Source: Fervidobacterium nodosum Rt17-B1 (GTDB lineage Bacteria; Thermotogota; Thermotogae; Thermotogales; Fervidobacteriaceae). Taken from it: DNA of 64,000 nucleotides. A model generated the notes under the pieces. It was not told where the DNA came from and searched no databases. It saw only the letters and a list, made by a program, of their open reading frames with translations. Each line of letters starts with the position of its first letter. The first letter of the stretch is position 1. A program made the translations under genes and the position numbers. The stretch lies in NCBI RefSeq assembly GCF_000017545.1, contig NC_009718.1, positions 1,674,001-1,738,000 on the forward strand. The letters are read 5' to 3'. Shown in pieces: positions 40,745-51,928 of this stretch.

Positions 40745-41023
40745 TTACTTTTTGTTTGCCAGTATTTCTTTGATTTTTTCTTCTACGCCATTTTTCTTAC
40801 CAGGCAAACATTTGTCAGGCTTATCTCCTTTTGCGATAGCCTTTGCGTAACCTTCACAGCCAGGATATCCACATGCGCCACAATTTATACCTGGTAATGC
40901 TTCTAAGATTAGTTTAACAGTAGGATCCTCCTCTACTTTGAACTTTTCACTAACATAAGATAAGAAAAGACCAAATGCAAAGCCTATACCACCAAGTAAA
41001 ATAGCTGAATAAACGACCACCAC
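40745..41023 (-). CDS. Small membrane Fe-S protein, RnfB N-terminal type
   Basis: 92 residues. One N-terminal helix (VVVVYSAILLGGIGFAFGLFL) followed by a 4Fe-4S domain with CGACGYPGCEGYAKAIAKG and a final CLPG: Cys pattern C-x2-C-x4-C-x16-C, as in the first part of RnfB. The ferredoxin domains of full RnfB are absent and no Rnf genes are near. GTG at 41023 with GGAGGTG is the natural start; the frame continues into the neighbouring IS to an ATG at 41089, which is an insertion artefact. Probably an electron-transfer subunit; partner unknown. Confidence 0.75.
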   Translation of the reverse strand: MVVVYSAILLGGIGFAFGLFLSYVSEKFKVEEDPTVKLILEALPGINCGACGYPGCEGYAKAIAKGDKPDKCLPGKKNGVEEKIKEILANKK

Positions 41024-41048
41024 ACCGTTCACCTCCAGACAATATGGG

Positions 41049-42094
41049 GATTTTGTTAACCAAAGGTATTGATAAATTTCAAAAATCATATTATCTTCTT
41101 AAATAGGGGACACCCCCCAATATACTCTCAATAAGGGGGTATCCCGACATGACTAATATCCAACTCAAATGCCCTCATTGTGGCTCTTCTAACTTCATCA
41201 AAAACGGTCATGATAAGTTCAAAAACCAAATCTTCTTTTGCAAAGACTGCAAGCGTTACTTTAAACTTTCTTTCACCAAAAAACACAAACTCTTCTCTTT
41301 CCCTTACCCTCGTTGTGTTCATTGTAACCATGTCATGGAAATTTACAAAATCCGCCGTTATTTCGTTCGTTTCAGATGCAGAAAGTGCAACTTCAAAACT
41401 TCTGTTCCACTTTCTCTTCCTCAGCCTGTGCCTTTCAACTTTCATCCTTTCAAATTCTTCCGTTTCCCTATCTATATCGTTCTCAAAGCTTTCATCTTGT
41501 ACTTCAAATACAACCTTTCTCTTCGTGCTATTAAAGCTTGCTTGAATATCAATGTCTCTCATGTTGCTATTTACAAATGGATTATCAAGTTATCTTCTGT
41601 TATTTCGCTTTTTGAGTTTGAGAATGTATTTAAAGTTCACGGTGATGAAACAGTTATTGTATTTCGAGACAAAAAGTACTATGTGTGGCTATTAGTTGAG
41701 CATGGTACGAATTTAATAGTAGCTTGGCATGTATCAAGATATCGTGATATGTCACAAGTTAAGATATTGTTAGATAAATACTTTAGTCAAAGAAAACAAA
41801 ACACACAAATAGAGTTAATAACCGATGGACTAAAAGCGTACGAGATAGCAGTAAAACTAAATTTTGATAATGTTGAGCACAGAGAAGTAAGACTAGGTAA
41901 AAACAACGAATGTGAATCGAAATTTTCGTTATTTAAGATGTTTGTTAGAGCGAAAAGGAGCTTCAAGAAATTTAGCAACATACGGTACTATGTAAATGGT
42001 TTTTGTGTAGTAAGGAACCTATGCAAGTTATATGAGAACGAAAATGAGATGATTACAGCTTTAGCTTCCATCATCACTACTAGTTAACAGCATC
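41049..42094 (+). mobile_element. IS6-like insertion sequence, copy 1 (1046 bp)
   Basis: Ends GATTTTGTTAAC (left) and GATGCTGTTAAC (right end, complement) form a 12-bp imperfect inverted repeat. It is flanked by the 8-bp direct repeat AATATGGG (41041-41048 and 42095-42102). It carries one transposase gene (41149-42087). It lies just upstream of the RnfB-like gene's ribosome-binding site. Copy 2 at 50883-51928 is the same length, in the same orientation, and differs by roughly ten bases. Confidence 0.9.
41149..42087 (+). CDS. IS6/IS240-like DDE transposase (copy 1)
   Basis: 312 residues. Two N-terminal zinc ribbons (CPHCGSSNF...CKDC and CVHCNHVM...CRKCNFK), a helix-turn-helix (LSLRAIKACLNINVSHVAIYKW), and the DDE domain: VHGDET, ITDGLKAY, and the Glu in NNECESKFSLFK. 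Residues around the third motif resemble the IS240 domain of the IS6 family. Intact. The start ATG follows AAGGGGGT, which can pair with an upstream C-tract (41110-41115). Confidence 0.88.
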   Translation: MTNIQLKCPHCGSSNFIKNGHDKFKNQIFFCKDCKRYFKLSFTKKHKLFSFPYPRCVHCNHVMEIYKIRRYFVRFRCRKCNFKTSVPLSLPQPVPFNFHPFKFFRFPIYIVLKAFILYFKYNLSLRAIKACLNINVSHVAIYKWIIKLSSVISLFEFENVFKVHGDETVIVFRDKKYYVWLLVEHGTNLIVAWHVSRYRDMSQVKILLDKYFSQRKQNTQIELITDGLKAYEIAVKLNFDNVEHREVRLGKNNECESKFSLFKMFVRAKRSFKKFSNIRYYVNGFCVVRNLCKLYENENEMITALASIITTS

Positions 42095-42265: not shown

Positions 42266-42380
42266 TTGAAATTTTACACTTTACAAGGTATAAATATATT
42301 GCAGCGACCCCCCTATCCCCCCTTGGAAGAGTTGGAAAACTTTTTCAAGATACCCCCGGAAAAAACCGGGGGATTTTTTG
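42266..42380 (+). ncRNA. Candidate small RNA with own promoter and terminator
   Basis: Promoter TTGAAA (42266-42271), exactly 17 nt, TATAAA (42289-42294). The expected RNA starts near 42301. It contains two CCCCCC tracts (42308-42313, 42317-42322) and an 11-bp hairpin with a GGAA loop (42323-42348, every position pairable with G-U allowed). It ends in an intrinsic terminator CCCCCGG-A6-CCGGGGG-A-TTTTTT (42353-42379), total about 80 nt. No convincing reading frame. A separate promoter for pelG follows, so it looks like an independent transcript; an attenuator leader for pelG is the alternative. Confidence 0.5.
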
Positions 42381-42382
42381 TT

Positions 42383-42411
42383 TTTAAATTCTTTTATTGG
42401 TATGATATAAT
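42383..42411 (+). promoter_or_regulatory. pelG promoter
   Basis: TATAAT (42406-42411) with TTTAAA 17 nt upstream (42383-42388). It begins right after the T-run of the upstream terminator, 35 nt before the pelG ATG. Confidence 0.5.
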
Positions 42412-42445: not shown

Positions 42446-43855
42446 ATGGCAGGGATAGGATTTGAATTAAACAAACTGTTAAAACGAAATTCTTTTTTCT
42501 CGGAAGCTGTCGCATTCTTTTATTCTGCAAATATATCTGCAGGACCATGGATAATATCTTCGTTGACACTTTTTCTAATACAAGTTTATATACCTCAACA
42601 GAATATTCCATTCCTAGTCTCAGGAATTATTTATACTTTCATTTTTTCAACAATACTTTTTGGAAGCGTTGCAACTTCCGTTACACGTTATTTATCTGAT
42701 TTGATTTATAAGAAGGAATTTAATAATATATATAAACTTTACACTTCGTTGGTTGGTTATGCGTTTATATCTTCTGGGATATTTCTTACCTTGTTCTTCC
42801 TTATCAACAAAATTTCTGAGTGGCAAAAAATTATTCTTTTTTCATATTCTTTGATTGTTCTTTCGATAATTTGGGTTCAAGTCATTTTTATATCCGCTAT
42901 TAGAAAATTTTCTCCCGTTATTCTAAGTTTTTTATTCGGTGGTACTGCTGGTTTCTTTTTAACTTTGTACCTTTATAAAACCAAAAATGAATATTATGCT
43001 TACGCAGGTTACAATTTTGGTTTAATGATTATACTTACAATTCTTCAACTTTACATTCGAAGATATCTTTATTTAGGAGAAGAGGTGGAAAAAGAACAAA
43101 AAAATATTAATCCTCCGCTTTTTATACTCTCGATTAAGGCATACAAAAAACAGGCACTATCAGGTTTTTTTACTTATATGGCTGCTTGGGTTGATGATTT
43201 TATCGCTTGGATTTATTTCAGATACAGTATTTCAAAAGGTTTTGTATTTGCGCCCCAGTATGATATTCCAATGTTTATCTCATACCTTTTTATAATTCCA
43301 ACCTTGTCACTTTTCGTTCTAAACTTGGAAACGGAATTTTATTTTTACTATAGAGCTTTTTACAAATCTATCGAAGAAAATCGCACTTTGAACTTTATAA
43401 GGATAAGTAAAAATAATTTAGACGAAAGTCTTTATTCTTCAACTAAACTTGTATTAGCGGTTCAATTTTCATTTATGTTAACTGGTCTTATTCTTTCTGA
43501 TAGTTTAGCTGATTTGTTGAGGCTTGATAGCTACGGCTCAACGGCTTTAAAATTTGGTATTGTTGGTGCTGCTGCAAATGGAATTTATCTTTACATTTCT
43601 TTGATAGCGCATTACTTTGACTTGCCTGGTATACCACTTAAATCTTCTATAATGGCCTTTTTGATTAATTTATTTTTATCACCACTCACTGTCAAGCGTT
43701 TGCCTGGAATCGGTTTTGTCATTGGTTTTATTTTTGCCACGATATACAGTTTTATTAGATTTAATCGCATTTATTCTAATTTGCTCATGTTTGAGTTTTC
43801 AAGAAACAGGCTGAAACTTCCGAAGGTAGGGGTTATAATTCATGAAAACAAATAA
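42446..43855 (+). CDS. pelG: PelG-like exopolysaccharide transport membrane protein
   Basis: 469 residues, close to the roughly 456 of P. aeruginosa PelG. The N-terminus MAGIGFELNKLLKRNSFFSE followed by SANISAGPWIISSL is the family hallmark. It has about 12-14 membrane helices, like MATE/Wzx flippases. In the Pel system PelG moves the growing polysaccharide across the inner membrane with PelD, PelE and the glycosyltransferase PelF. The ATG at 42446 has CGGGGGAT upstream; the frame is open further 5' by chance. pelD and pelE homologues follow; pelF, A, B and C are not in the window. Confidence 0.85.
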   Translation: MAGIGFELNKLLKRNSFFSEAVAFFYSANISAGPWIISSLTLFLIQVYIPQQNIPFLVSGIIYTFIFSTILFGSVATSVTRYLSDLIYKKEFNNIYKLYTSLVGYAFISSGIFLTLFFLINKISEWQKIILFSYSLIVLSIIWVQVIFISAIRKFSPVILSFLFGGTAGFFLTLYLYKTKNEYYAYAGYNFGLMIILTILQLYIRRYLYLGEEVEKEQKNINPPLFILSIKAYKKQALSGFFTYMAAWVDDFIAWIYFRYSISKGFVFAPQYDIPMFISYLFIIPTLSLFVLNLETEFYFYYRAFYKSIEENRTLNFIRISKNNLDESLYSSTKLVLAVQFSFMLTGLILSDSLADLLRLDSYGSTALKFGIVGAAANGIYLYISLIAHYFDLPGIPLKSSIMAFLINLFLSPLTVKRLPGIGFVIGFIFATIYSFIRFNRIYSNLLMFEFSRNRLKLPKVGVIIHENK

Positions 43856-43947
43856 GTTTGGGACAAAATCAAGGTTTGGAGAAAAAATGAAAAAAAATAG
43901 TATTCTCTGGCTCGTTTTCCATATGGTTTATAGAATATTTTTTGGTG

Positions 43948-45078
43948 ATGTTTTTCGTATATATACTTTTCTTAATGCATTGGTTAAATGTAAATATATT
44001 TGTTTCTCTGCTCATAGGCTTGGTTTTTATATGGTCTGCTCGTCATGGTCTTCTTGCGTTTATAGTCTCTATGCTTTCTTTTGAGATGATATTTTTATAT
44101 ATTTTGAAAAAAACTGGAAATCTTATTTTTCCTGCAAATGCAACATCTGTTTACGTTATAGTTCTTGGGCTTTTCATTGGTATTATAGGAGAGATTTTAA
44201 ATAAAAGGCTTAGAACAACGGAAAACGAGAGAAAAAAGCTTGAAATGGAGAGGAAAAATCTCGTTGAACATATTGAAACGTTAAAGTCTGTTATTAGCCA
44301 GCTTGAGCTTAGAATATATTTTGAAGGTCAAGGGATGATAGACCTTCTTGAGAGATTGCAAGAACTTGAAATATTAGATCTTGATGAGATGCTTACAAGA
44401 GCAGTAAGTATAATTGCGGAGTTTTTTGAAATTGAAAATTTGAAACTTTACAGTGTGGATAAATATTTTCTAAGGTATGTTGCTGGTATAGGCAAGAAGA
44501 ATCTGCCAAATTCTTTTGAAGCGAAAAATTCAAAAGTAATATCAAGGGCTTTGGAAAAAGGATATGCTTCTTTACCAGAGGTTTTGCTTGAAATGGAAAT
44601 AGAAAATTTTGAACCGTGGTTTGCTGTTTCAGTTGGAAGAGGAGATGACACATTTGGAGTTTTTGTGGTTGAAGATATAACTCCTGACAAGTTTTCCCAA
44701 ACGCTGATACTTTATATGCAGTCTATTGCGTCCTGGCTTAATGCAAATATTAAAATAGTCAAAGAAGAGACGAAACTGCTCGAAGAACGATTTAAGAATA
44801 CCGACGGTACATGGAGTGAGGAGTATTACATTAAAAAGAAATCAGTACTCGACAAGAGAAGAGAAAAGTTCGGAATTCCATACGAAGAGCTATGTCTAAT
44901 ATACGATAAAACAATTCATGGCTCAGTTATAAAAGAATTTAGAGCATCTGATATAGCTACTGCTAAGGGAATCGGTGATAGAGTTCAACTTAAGGTGTTG
45001 TTGTCTGTTTGTGATGAAATTGGTAAAAAGAAGATTATTGAGAGGTTGGTTAGTAAATATGAAATCCAAATGTGTTAA
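43948..45078 (+). CDS. pelD: PelD-like c-di-GMP receptor, 5' end frameshifted
   Basis: 376 residues from the ATG at 43948, which has no ribosome-binding site. Layout fits PelD: membrane helices (about 1-85), coiled coil (85-125), GAF domain (about 130-270), and a degenerate GGDEF domain (about 285-376) that keeps an RxxD motif (RASD, R332-D335), the I-site type c-di-GMP contact. The only good start signal, GTTTGGAGAAAA before the ATG at 43887, is in the other frame. A loss of one base in the A8 run (43890-43897) or the T6 run (43938-43943) would join them. Phase variation, a sequencing error, or a decayed 5' end are possible. Confidence 0.75.
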   Translation: MFFVYILFLMHWLNVNIFVSLLIGLVFIWSARHGLLAFIVSMLSFEMIFLYILKKTGNLIFPANATSVYVIVLGLFIGIIGEILNKRLRTTENERKKLEMERKNLVEHIETLKSVISQLELRIYFEGQGMIDLLERLQELEILDLDEMLTRAVSIIAEFFEIENLKLYSVDKYFLRYVAGIGKKNLPNSFEAKNSKVISRALEKGYASLPEVLLEMEIENFEPWFAVSVGRGDDTFGVFVVEDITPDKFSQTLILYMQSIASWLNANIKIVKEETKLLEERFKNTDGTWSEEYYIKKKSVLDKRREKFGIPYEELCLIYDKTIHGSVIKEFRASDIATAKGIGDRVQLKVLLSVCDEIGKKKIIERLVSKYEIQMC

Positions 45079-45961
45079 TAAAGAGGAGAAGTATAGAAAG
45101 AGGGAAGGTATAAATTATATTATCTTGCTGAATATTACTAATGTATTCCTTATATTGATAAACCTAATAACCATTTACCTCTACGGGTTTCGTTTCCAGA
45201 ATTTTTTAGTTTATTTAATTTCAGCAGCGATTTACTATCTCTATAGGAAAAATCTTCCGGAAATTATCGTATTTACGCTTTCATATCCTCTTGCTTGGCT
45301 TTATATGATACCTTTAAAAAATGAAGAAATTGAAGATTTTTTCAACATTCCGCTTATGCCTGAAATTGTTATGAAAATTGATAAAGAAGCGCTATCTACT
45401 TTACCAATAAAAACTGTTCTGACTATTGGAGCGATTTCAGAAAGAAAAGCTGTGACTTATGATATATTTGCCCAAGTAACAAGAGGTATAAATATAGAAC
45501 AAAACATGAAATATCTACAGCAACTATTGAAGGATCCTCATATGGATGTCTCATTATACGCTGGCCAAGCTCTCGAAGATATAGAAAATTATTTTGAGTA
45601 CCATATTTCAAAGACAAAAAATGAAAATACAATTCATTCGTGTTTGTTCATATATAACTACCTTCGAACTGGGATATTGCGCGGGTCTTTAAAAGAAAAA
45701 TATAAGCTTTTGCTTATGGAAAAGCTTGGTAAGGTAAGTGATAGAGTACATCTTTACTATGAAATGATGTATTATTTGACAGGCGATATAAATTATCTTT
45801 TGGAAAGTTTCAAAAAGACTAAGAATATGGAACATTTAAGATTATTTGTCTTTGAGAAACTTAAAAGACAAGATTACAAAGAAGCAAGAGCTATATTATT
45901 CCAACATACAAAAGCATTGGTACGTGATATTTCTAATCTAATAAGCAATTCAAGGAAGTGA
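45059..45961 (+). CDS. pelE: PelE-like membrane protein
   Basis: 300 residues. Two or three N-terminal membrane helices (IILLNITNVFLILINLITIYL and further to about residue 80) are followed by about 220 helical residues with TPR/HEAT-like repeats (KYLQQLLKDPHMDVSLYAGQALEDIENYFEYHI). This order of membrane anchor then helical repeats, directly after a PelD-like gene, fits PelE, the partner of PelD in the inner-membrane synthase complex. Sequence identity alone would not prove it. The ATG overlaps pelD by 20 nt; longer starts in pelD are unlikely. The next gene starts 5 nt after the stop. Confidence 0.7.
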   Translation: MKSKCVNKEEKYRKREGINYIILLNITNVFLILINLITIYLYGFRFQNFLVYLISAAIYYLYRKNLPEIIVFTLSYPLAWLYMIPLKNEEIEDFFNIPLMPEIVMKIDKEALSTLPIKTVLTIGAISERKAVTYDIFAQVTRGINIEQNMKYLQQLLKDPHMDVSLYAGQALEDIENYFEYHISKTKNENTIHSCLFIYNYLRTGILRGSLKEKYKLLLMEKLGKVSDRVHLYYEMMYYLTGDINYLLESFKKTKNMEHLRLFVFEKLKRQDYKEARAILFQHTKALVRDISNLISNSRK

Positions 45962-49300: not shown

Positions 49301-50857
49301 CTATTTATCTTTTTGCGTTTCTAATTTTTTACTGATACTTCTGTATGTAAGGATAAAGCTCGATATGAAAATTACTATAAGAACAATTCTCGCTGCGATG
49401 ACCCAAGGAATTAGTACAGAGTTATCTTTAACAAAATCCGGTATCAATTTGAAGTAACCATTCTTTGCGTAATCTATCGTTGAGAAAACAAGTAAAATGA
49501 TTATAAATGCTGGGGTTATGAAGCTCATTATTAACTTATAGAACCACATTGGTATTTTCCAGTAGCTTCCTTTGTTTATCTCTTCAAGGCCTTTTGCTTT
49601 AAACAACCATACAGCCGCAATGACTTCAATTAATCCGAGCAAGACGAGGAAATAAGTACCAACCCAATTATCAAGCTCTGTTAAGTACATTAAATCAGCT
49701 GTTTTCGTGAGAATAGGTTCTAATGCAACAGGTAAACCACCGATGATGTACATGAGAAAAACAAACAACGAGCCTTTCTTTCTTTCAACGCCAAATTCTT
49801 CTTCTAAAAATGCAGTTAGATAATTAAACATTGCTATTGAACTTGTTATTCCAGCAAAGAAAAGTAGCAGGAACCAGAATGTTCCAAAAATCTGTCCACC
49901 AGCCATGTTTCTAAATACGTTTGGAAGCGCTATGAAAGATAATCCAACTCCACTCTTTAAACCCTCGGCGCCAAGGAAAGTAAAAGCAATGGGGATAACT
50001 ATTGTACCAGCTAGTATGACCTCTGCGAATTCATTTAATGAAGCTGTTGCAACTGCTGATGTTACGATGTCATCCTCGTCTCTCATGTAAGAAGCATAGT
50101 TTTGGATTATTCCCATACCTAGGGATAGCGTAAAGAATATCTGCCCTGCTGCTGCTAATGTTGCCGACCAATTCAACTCGTTCCATCTTGGAGACCATAA
50201 GAAATCAAGCCCCTTAATTGGATTCCATTCAGGGTTCACTGGTGATCCTAATGTAAGCGCTCTCACAAGAAGAATAATTGCGAATATATAAATAGCTGGC
50301 ATAGCGATTATTGCTAATCTTTCCAAGCCTTTGTTAACACCATTACTTGTTATGTAATATAAAATTGCGAGTGTTATTATCCAGAATATTAATACTCTAA
50401 AAGGACTTTGAATGTATCCGACAAAATAACCAGCTGTATCGATTGATTTATCCATGTATTTTCCAACGGCTGTTTCAAAAGAATAACCAAGCGTCCAACC
50501 AATAACATGATTGTAATAGGAGTTTAGGAGTATAACTACCGAAAGTGCGATTGCGCCAGCCAACGCGCCAAGTACTTTCGCAAACTTATGGCCAACGCTC
50601 TCTTTTGCTTGTAAGTAAATCATTGGACCTAATGTACCATGTCCATACTTTCCACCGTATCTACCTTGAGCCCATTCAATTATTAGCAGAGGGATACCCA
50701 TAAAAAGGAAAGCGATGAAATATGGTATCATAAAGGCTCCCCCACCGTTTTTGGCTGCTTGATACGGGAATCTCCAGAAATTCCCAAGACCTATAGCGTT
50801 ACCTGCCATAGCTAATATCAAACCTATCTTACTTCCCCAGTGTTCTCTCTTCTTCAC
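49301..50857 (-). CDS. NSS-family sodium-dependent amino-acid symporter
   Basis: 518 residues with 11-12 membrane helices. The family signature GNAIGLGNFWRFPYQAAKNG (about residues 17-36, sodium and substrate site of helix 1) is perfect, followed by GGAFMIPYFIAFLFMGIPLL. Length and the small subunit downstream fit the MetP branch. Imports amino acids (methionine or alanine are candidates) with sodium. The natural start is GTG at 50857 with GAGGAGGTGG upstream; the open frame continues to an ATG at 50923 inside the IS. The insertion 18 nt upstream of the ribosome-binding site must have removed the original promoter. Confidence 0.93.
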   Translation of the reverse strand: MKKREHWGSKIGLILAMAGNAIGLGNFWRFPYQAAKNGGGAFMIPYFIAFLFMGIPLLIIEWAQGRYGGKYGHGTLGPMIYLQAKESVGHKFAKVLGALAGAIALSVVILLNSYYNHVIGWTLGYSFETAVGKYMDKSIDTAGYFVGYIQSPFRVLIFWIITLAILYYITSNGVNKGLERLAIIAMPAIYIFAIILLVRALTLGSPVNPEWNPIKGLDFLWSPRWNELNWSATLAAAGQIFFTLSLGMGIIQNYASYMRDEDDIVTSAVATASLNEFAEVILAGTIVIPIAFTFLGAEGLKSGVGLSFIALPNVFRNMAGGQIFGTFWFLLLFFAGITSSIAMFNYLTAFLEEEFGVERKKGSLFVFLMYIIGGLPVALEPILTKTADLMYLTELDNWVGTYFLVLLGLIEVIAAVWLFKAKGLEEINKGSYWKIPMWFYKLIMSFITPAFIIILLVFSTIDYAKNGYFKLIPDFVKDNSVLIPWVIAARIVLIVIFISSFILTYRSISKKLETQKDK

Positions 50858-50882
50858 AACGGCCACCTCCTCGAAAGTTTGG

Positions 50883-51928
50883 GATTTTGTTAACCAAAGG
50901 TATTGATAAATTTCAAAAATCATATTATCTTCTTAAATAGGGGACACCCCCCAATATACTCTCAATAAGGAGGTATCCCGACATGACTAATATCCAACTC
51001 AAATGCCCCCATTGCGGCTCTTCTAACTTCATCAAAAATGGTCATGATAAATTCAAAAACCAAATCTTCTTTTGCAAAGACTGCAAGCGTTACTTTAAAC
51101 TTTCTTTCACCAAAAAACACAAACTTTTCTCTTTCCCTTACCCTCGTTGTGTTCATTGTAACCATGTCATGGAAATTTACAAAATCCGCCGTTATTTCGT
51201 TCGTTTCAGATGCAGAAAGTGCAACTTCAAAACTTCTGTTCCACTTTCTCTTCCTCAGCCTGTGCCTTTCAACTTTCATCCTTTCAAATTCTTCCGTTTC
51301 CCTATCTATATCATTCTCAAAGCTTTCATCTTGTACTTCAAATACAACCTTTCTCTTCGTGCTATTAAAGCTTGCTTGAATATCAATGTCTCTCATGTCG
51401 CTATTTACAAATGGATTATCAAGTTATCTTCTGTTATTTCGCTTTTTGAGTTTGAGAATGTATTTAAAGTTCACGGTGATGAAACAGTTATTGTATTTCG
51501 AGACAAAAAGTACTATGTGTGGCTATTAGTTGAGCATGGTACGAATTTAATAGTAGCTTGGCATGTATCAAGATATCGTGATATGTCACAAGTTAAGATA
51601 TTGTTAGATAAATACTTTAGTCAAAGAAAACAAAACACACAAATAGAGTTAATAACCGATGGACTAAAAGCGTACGAGATAGCAGTAAAACTAAATTTTG
51701 ATAATGTTGAGCACAGAGAAGTAAGACTAGGTAAAAACAACGAATGTGAATCGAAATTTTCGTTATTTAAGATGTTTGTTAGAGCGAAAAGGAGCTTCAA
51801 GAAATTTAGCAACATACGGTACTATGTAAATGGTTTTTGTGTAGTAAGGAACCTATGCAAGTTATATGAGAACGAAAATGAGATGATTACAGCTTTAGCT
51901 TCCATCATCACTACTAGTTAACAACTTC
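50883..51928 (+). mobile_element. IS6-like insertion sequence, copy 2 (1046 bp)
   Basis: Same ends as copy 1 (GATTTTGTTAAC at the left, GAAGTTGTTAAC at the right end complement) with its own 8-bp duplication AAGTTTGG (50875-50882 and 51929-51936). It differs from copy 1 at about eight positions in the first half and a few at the right tip; the last ~500 bp of the gene are identical. Orientation is the same as copy 1. It lies just upstream of the NSS symporter start. Confidence 0.9.
50983..51921 (+). CDS. IS6/IS240-like DDE transposase (copy 2)
   Basis: 312 residues, one amino-acid difference from copy 1 (Ile for Val in the segment FPIYIILKAF). All zinc ligands and the DDE residues are kept. 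Six of the seven coding differences between the copies are silent, which suggests selection on the protein. The ribosome-binding site here is AAGGAGGT, stronger than the AAGGGGGT of copy 1 and less able to pair with the upstream C-tract. Confidence 0.88.
   Translation: MTNIQLKCPHCGSSNFIKNGHDKFKNQIFFCKDCKRYFKLSFTKKHKLFSFPYPRCVHCNHVMEIYKIRRYFVRFRCRKCNFKTSVPLSLPQPVPFNFHPFKFFRFPIYIILKAFILYFKYNLSLRAIKACLNINVSHVAIYKWIIKLSSVISLFEFENVFKVHGDETVIVFRDKKYYVWLLVEHGTNLIVAWHVSRYRDMSQVKILLDKYFSQRKQNTQIELITDGLKAYEIAVKLNFDNVEHREVRLGKNNECESKFSLFKMFVRAKRSFKKFSNIRYYVNGFCVVRNLCKLYENENEMITALASIITTS

Follow-up and report, generated by a model that had tools for sequence, protein, structure and literature searches.

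Three adjacent pel genes in Fervidobacterium nodosum as the very probable membrane export half of a Pel system dispersed over three loci

A short run of Pel polysaccharide genes in Fervidobacterium nodosum Rt17-B1 raises the question of whether it is a truncated export core served by some other synthase or one part of a complete system whose remaining genes lie elsewhere. The window, the 64,000-nucleotide stretch of DNA that was analysed, covers positions 1,674,001-1,738,000 of the 1,948,941-base contig, and within it the interval 42446-45961 is filled exactly by three consecutive plus-strand genes, pelG, pelD, and pelE, followed by a metF-like gene and then priA. The initial annotation, which was made from the window alone, had given these three inner-membrane Pel genes with exact coordinates, and its idea of a c-di-GMP-gated export core gained support in the analyses below; its description of the locus as truncated did not. 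It is very probable that pelGDE encodes the export half, seated in the inner membrane and controlled by c-di-GMP, of a complete Pel system of the Gram-positive type whose genes are spread over three loci, and an apparently crippled locus thereby becomes part of a complete, dispersed one.

The first gene, pelG (42446..43855, plus strand), encodes a polytopic membrane protein of 469 amino acids, and its assignment was borne out by a match to Pfam PF16933 at 372 bits (E = 5.9e-111; cut-off, 29). Identity to the PelG proteins found in other Thermotogota was 28-68%. NCBIfam profiles gave nothing useful for PelG, PelD, or PelE of the window. An extended -10 box, TGaTATAAT (42403..42411, plus strand), read from the sequence and situated 3' of the terminator of a small RNA gene, belongs to a likely pelG promoter, and a TATAAT-like box was present at the same spot before pelG across the genus.

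The second gene, pelD (43842..45078, plus strand), encodes membrane helices, a coiled coil, a GAF domain, and a degenerate GGDEF domain with an RxxD motif; apart from the coiled coil, the initial annotation had described these features. The profile search identified GAF_3 (E = 1.3e-8), and sequence profiles missed the GGDEF part. Searches of the PDB with the single sequence and with a profile returned no PelD match, in agreement with the B. cereus PelD GGDEF fold, which is likewise invisible to BLAST and HMMER (PMC7112168). In an AlphaFold2 model of the protein (pLDDT, 81; pTM, 0.55), the fold was closest to that of P. aeruginosa PelD: the best six Foldseek matches were all to that protein (E = 7e-8 to 5e-7), and the high overall rmsd between the two arose because their two domains were placed differently. 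VIA-align found many GAF domains at Z values similar to that of PelD, which shows the common GAF fold only. The I-site motif RASD, R334-A-S-D337 in the 378-amino-acid frame (44941..44952, plus strand), was invariant in both PelD alignments, and R368 (45043..45045, plus strand), the third c-di-GMP residue, was invariant in alignment A3 and nearly so in A2. All three residues were invariant across 14 PelD sequences, including those of Legionella and Persephonella. By motif and spacing, R334, D337, and R368 match R363, D366, and R395 of B. cereus PelD, which are required for c-di-GMP binding and biofilm formation, and R368 is the counterpart of R395/R402 (PMC7112168). Fold model and conserved residues thus support the window PelD as a predicted c-di-GMP receptor with its three binding residues kept.

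Compared with relatives, the pelD gene carries a frame break near its start, a detail absent from the initial annotation. As in relatives, an ATG at 43842 lies within the end of pelG, but it is in a different frame from the body of the gene, 43942-45078, which encodes 378 amino acids from a TTG codon, with a further in-frame ATG at 43948. Upstream, the body frame runs into a stop codon at 43888-43890; the first usual start codons within it are at 43942-43948. The most likely site of a one-base break is an A8 run at 43890..43897 (plus strand), one of 7 A/T runs of at least 8 bases in the window. A one-base shift there restored a PelD of 411 amino acids resembling those of relatives; the A8 run was favored only slightly in profile score (554 bits versus 550 bits for a nearby T6 run). 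The break may be a sequencing error, a true mutation with a shortened PelD, or a site of slippage, and given this break the PelD of this strain may be shortened or off.

The third gene (45059..45961, plus strand) is pelE-like, and the claim that it is PelE stood in part. Its 300-amino-acid product has an N-terminal membrane helix followed by a helical region, its start overlaps pelD by 20 nucleotides as in relatives, and related proteins occupy the same place in other Thermotogota pel loci. The protein matched no Pfam family, and the PelE profile gave no match to PelE of Gram-negative loci, homology to which was undetectable by sequence. Position, topology, and relatives make it very likely that the third gene is PelE.

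The absence of pelF and pelA noted in the initial annotation was true of the window but false if extended to the genome. On the same chromosome, approximately 1.0 Mb from pelGDE, lies a standard PelF and PelA-type deacetylase pair (G000:C1:704608-708235). The GT4 synthase gene pelF (G000:C1:706844-708235, minus strand) encodes a protein matching PF11997 at 277 bits and the NCBIfam PelF equivalog NF038011 at 310 bits (cut-off, 100), which argues strongly against the suggested different synthase. The adjoining gene (G000:C1:704608-706851) encodes a DUF2194 protein (PF09960, 667 bits) that matched the B. cereus deacetylase PelADA (9ZAU; E = 7e-35) and retained the DD, HxxxH (HGYNH), and HPDD motifs, the metal and catalytic motifs of PelADA-type deacetylases (PMC13254593). 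With both genes found, the locus is one side of an ordinary split operon, the outcome that the initial annotation had itself set against a truncated locus. GGDEF domains matched 17 times over the cut-off in the genome.

A third locus (734779-735747), beside an era-like gene and approximately 27 kb from pelF, encodes a GH114-type (PF03537; 96.7 bits; cut-off, 27), or GH191, hydrolase with an N-terminal hydrophobic segment. It scored 147 bits against TIGR01370, below the cut-off of 181, and matched TM1410 (E = 6e-36), one of two structures on which family GH191 was founded (PMC12054363), with catalytic Asp156 and Glu225 kept. This relationship bears on the possibility that the genes form a Pel-like machine that makes another amino-sugar polymer: no Thermotogota polymer is known, and TM1410 is inactive on fungal GAG (PMC12054363). 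Such a product is unlikely, however, given a PelF that scores 310 bits against an equivalog cut-off of 100, a GH191 relative, Env-GH191, that cuts Pel (PMC12054363), and a GH114-type gene directly beside pelA in genome G090. The cell's own Pel-type polymer is suggested as the substrate of TM1410 (GH191).

The distribution of the dispersed parts was compared in 103 Thermotogota genomes, 40 of which had PelG over the cut-off; the counts are raw with respect to phylogeny. PelF was present in 40/40 genomes with PelG versus 1/63 others, DUF2194 over the cut-off in 35/40 versus 0/63, and GH114/GH191 in 34/40 versus 4/63 (Fisher 1e-16, kinship ignored). The PelG genomes without DUF2194 were G053, G054, G055, G059, and G062. 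From the rnfB side, genomes G071 and G073 aligned at 95% identity until immediately ahead of pelG, where G071 had no G-D-E block; G071 also lacked pelF, DUF2194, and the GH114 hydrolase, all of which G073 has. Genome G072 lacked every Pel part. In G068 (L037:7330-9889), the pelG match stopped after residue 227, pelD was not found, half of pelE remained, and an RRXRR-HNH (IscB-like) open reading frame lay in between; pelF and pelA were intact. The two halves are thus not strictly bound, since G068 has a damaged G-D-E block and an intact F-A pair. Concerted loss from separate places, together with the movement of the block as a unit described below, is evidence that the Pel parts work together.

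These genomes also speak to the possibility that the system is decaying and the genus is losing Pel, as the pelD frame break at A8, the damaged block of G068 (short pelG, unmatched pelD, half pelE, with the RRXRR-HNH frame between), and the absence of all parts from G071 and G072 might suggest. General decay is improbable, given that G067, G069, G070, and G074 all have unbroken frames for G, D, E, F, and A and that the window genome itself has kept its conserved residues at the active site and the I-site. A truncated export core working with a synthase other than PelF, which the lack of pelF and pelA in the window and the separate G-D-E block throughout the genus where testable would favor, is hardly credible in view of the PelF and PelA-type deacetylase in the genome, their co-occurrence with PelG, and the joint loss of all loci in G071.

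Gene order in the phylum indicated how the complete but dispersed set could have arisen. In the sister genus (g2), genome G076 has an FKBP-like gene, pelF, pelA, pelG, pelD, pelE, and a 5'-nucleotidase gene in one run, and in G075 the same genes are divided between two contigs, with pelA interrupted at the contig ends. In the genus of the window (g1), the corresponding run consists of the FKBP-like gene, pelF, pelA, a DUF155 gene, and the 5'-nucleotidase gene, without G-D-E, which instead is flanked by an rnfB-like gene and metF-priA in the window and in G067, G068 (damaged), G069, G070, and G074. The separation of F-A from G-D-E was found throughout the genus wherever it was testable. In both the PelG and the PelF trees, the two genera fell into one strongly supported clade that included G059. 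Because the sister genus keeps F-A-G-D-E in one run, the simplest reading is that G-D-E moved out of this ancestral run as a block in the genus of the window. Other Thermotogota commonly had A-G-D-E with F as a neighbor, and D-E-x-F-G-A was the other arrangement. The order G-D-E, which had been called unusual, is therefore ordinary in the phylum, A-G-D-E being the usual run in many Thermotogota.

Several further arrangements were seen. In a genus outside the family, G059 (L047) and G062 (L061-L062) have an F-G-D-E set very near the Fervidobacterium type and without DUF2194; horizontal transfer and a Pel set that dispenses with the DUF2194 deacetylase are possible, and G059 was probably the recipient of its pel genes by transfer. 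Tandem pel loci were present in the T. maritima relatives G091 (L051) and, by coordinates, G093 and G094, with two pelF and two pelG genes approximately 8 kb apart. In one Thermotogota group, a gene for a small protein lies between pelE and pelF (L045:6906-7409, L048:7244-7831, and L044:11496-12056); the protein matched no Pfam family and is a candidate envelope part.

The absence of pelB, and probably that of pelC, is usual in Thermotogota, as it is in Gram-positive Pel clusters. The PelB barrel (PF24604) was found in 0/103 Thermotogota genomes, and as a positive control the same profile matched 5/7 control genomes carrying PelG. In Thermotogales the outer membrane is part of the toga (PMC5487896), which raises the question of the route by which Pel, made without PelB, would pass the outer membrane. 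As a tentative proposal, Thermotogota might make Pel with a PelB-less gene set of the kind found in Gram-positive bacteria, the polymer either leaving by a novel route or remaining in the periplasm or toga, where it would form a structural or adhesive layer.

Under the preferred reading, of a complete but dispersed system, diguanylate cyclases would make c-di-GMP, which would bind the RxxD site in the degenerate GGDEF domain of PelD. PelD, PelE, and PelG would then let the GT4 synthase PelF polymerize UDP-GalNAc-type precursors, with the chain crossing the membrane; the PelA-type deacetylase (DUF2194) would strip acetyl groups at the outer face, and the GH191-type hydrolase, presumably secreted, would trim the polymer. 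The split into separate loci would reflect departure of the G-D-E block from the ancestral F-A-G-D-E run. The gene identities, the I-site and catalytic residues, the co-occurrence, and the block movement were computed here, and we infer Pel activity, its substrate, complex formation, and regulation in the window genome.

The closest counterpart is pelDEA_DAFG of B. cereus ATCC 10987 (PMC7112168), which has the same five-gene set, counting the pelE-like gene, without PelB or PelC, a PelD with an intact RxxD motif and third Arg, a separate PelA-type deacetylase, and a separate hydrolase gene. In B. cereus these genes form one operon, whereas in the window genome they lie at three loci in a host with an outer membrane, and the hydrolase resembles TM1410/GH191 rather than PelAH/GH166. 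With pelABCDEFG of P. aeruginosa the window genome shares the PelD fold, PelF, PelG, and the deacetylase function; it differs in that no PelB barrel was found, the deacetylase and hydrolase are separate proteins, and the genes do not form a single operon. The GH191 enzyme TM1410/TmGH191 (PDB 2AAM and 9EUX; PMC12054363) is a relative of the window genome hydrolase, which stands alone by the era-like gene, in contrast to the TM1410-type gene beside pelA in G090. Pel operons of Thermotogae had already been counted in a 2020 operon survey (PMC7112194), whose main text covers the same phylum and describes neither Fervidobacterium nor the F-A/G-D-E split, and no description of Fervidobacterium pel genes was found in the main texts compared. 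As far as these main texts go, Pel in Thermotogae is itself known, and the dispersed arrangement and the proposed GH191 link are new.

Directly upstream of pelG lies an apparently independent, strongly conserved C-rich small RNA gene (42266..42380, plus strand) with a promoter of its own, TTGAAA-17-TATAAA, and a terminator hairpin followed by a T run. The RNA, starting at approximately 42301, contains GCAGCGACCCCCCUAUCCCCCC, a 12-bp hairpin, and a terminator (z = -3.2). Seven more Fervidobacterium genomes carry it unchanged, one of them without pelGDE; outside the genus and the family it was detected as a single copy in each genome (E down to 1e-9), with relatives at L138-L162 and L164-L167. 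Its core of 19 consecutive bases, CCCCCTATCCCCCCTTGGA, was invariant among 13 diverse members from Thermotogota, and no exact copy of the core was found in viral contigs. A c-di-GMP riboswitch or other known RNA before pelG was rejected, as nothing in the upstream region came near the Rfam gathering score. The RNA was also rejected as a part of pel: G071 keeps it without pelGDE, and in other genera it lies by other genes (dnaB-like and pyrK-like by eye). Since its neighbors change between genera, the RNA is probably trans-acting rather than a pel leader. Base pairing of its C tracts with ribosome-binding sites rich in G, such as GGGGGATAAG before the pelG ATG, is conceivable, and the RNA is a candidate for a new RNA family.

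An insertion element of the DDE_Tnp_IS240 type is present as two nearly identical direct copies, at approximately 41047-42089 and 50881-51923 and 9834 bases apart, which flank pelGDE-metF-priA and a transporter gene. The ends of these copies give the open reading frames 40745-41089 and 49301-50923 an identical first 14 residues (MIFEIYQYLWLTKS).
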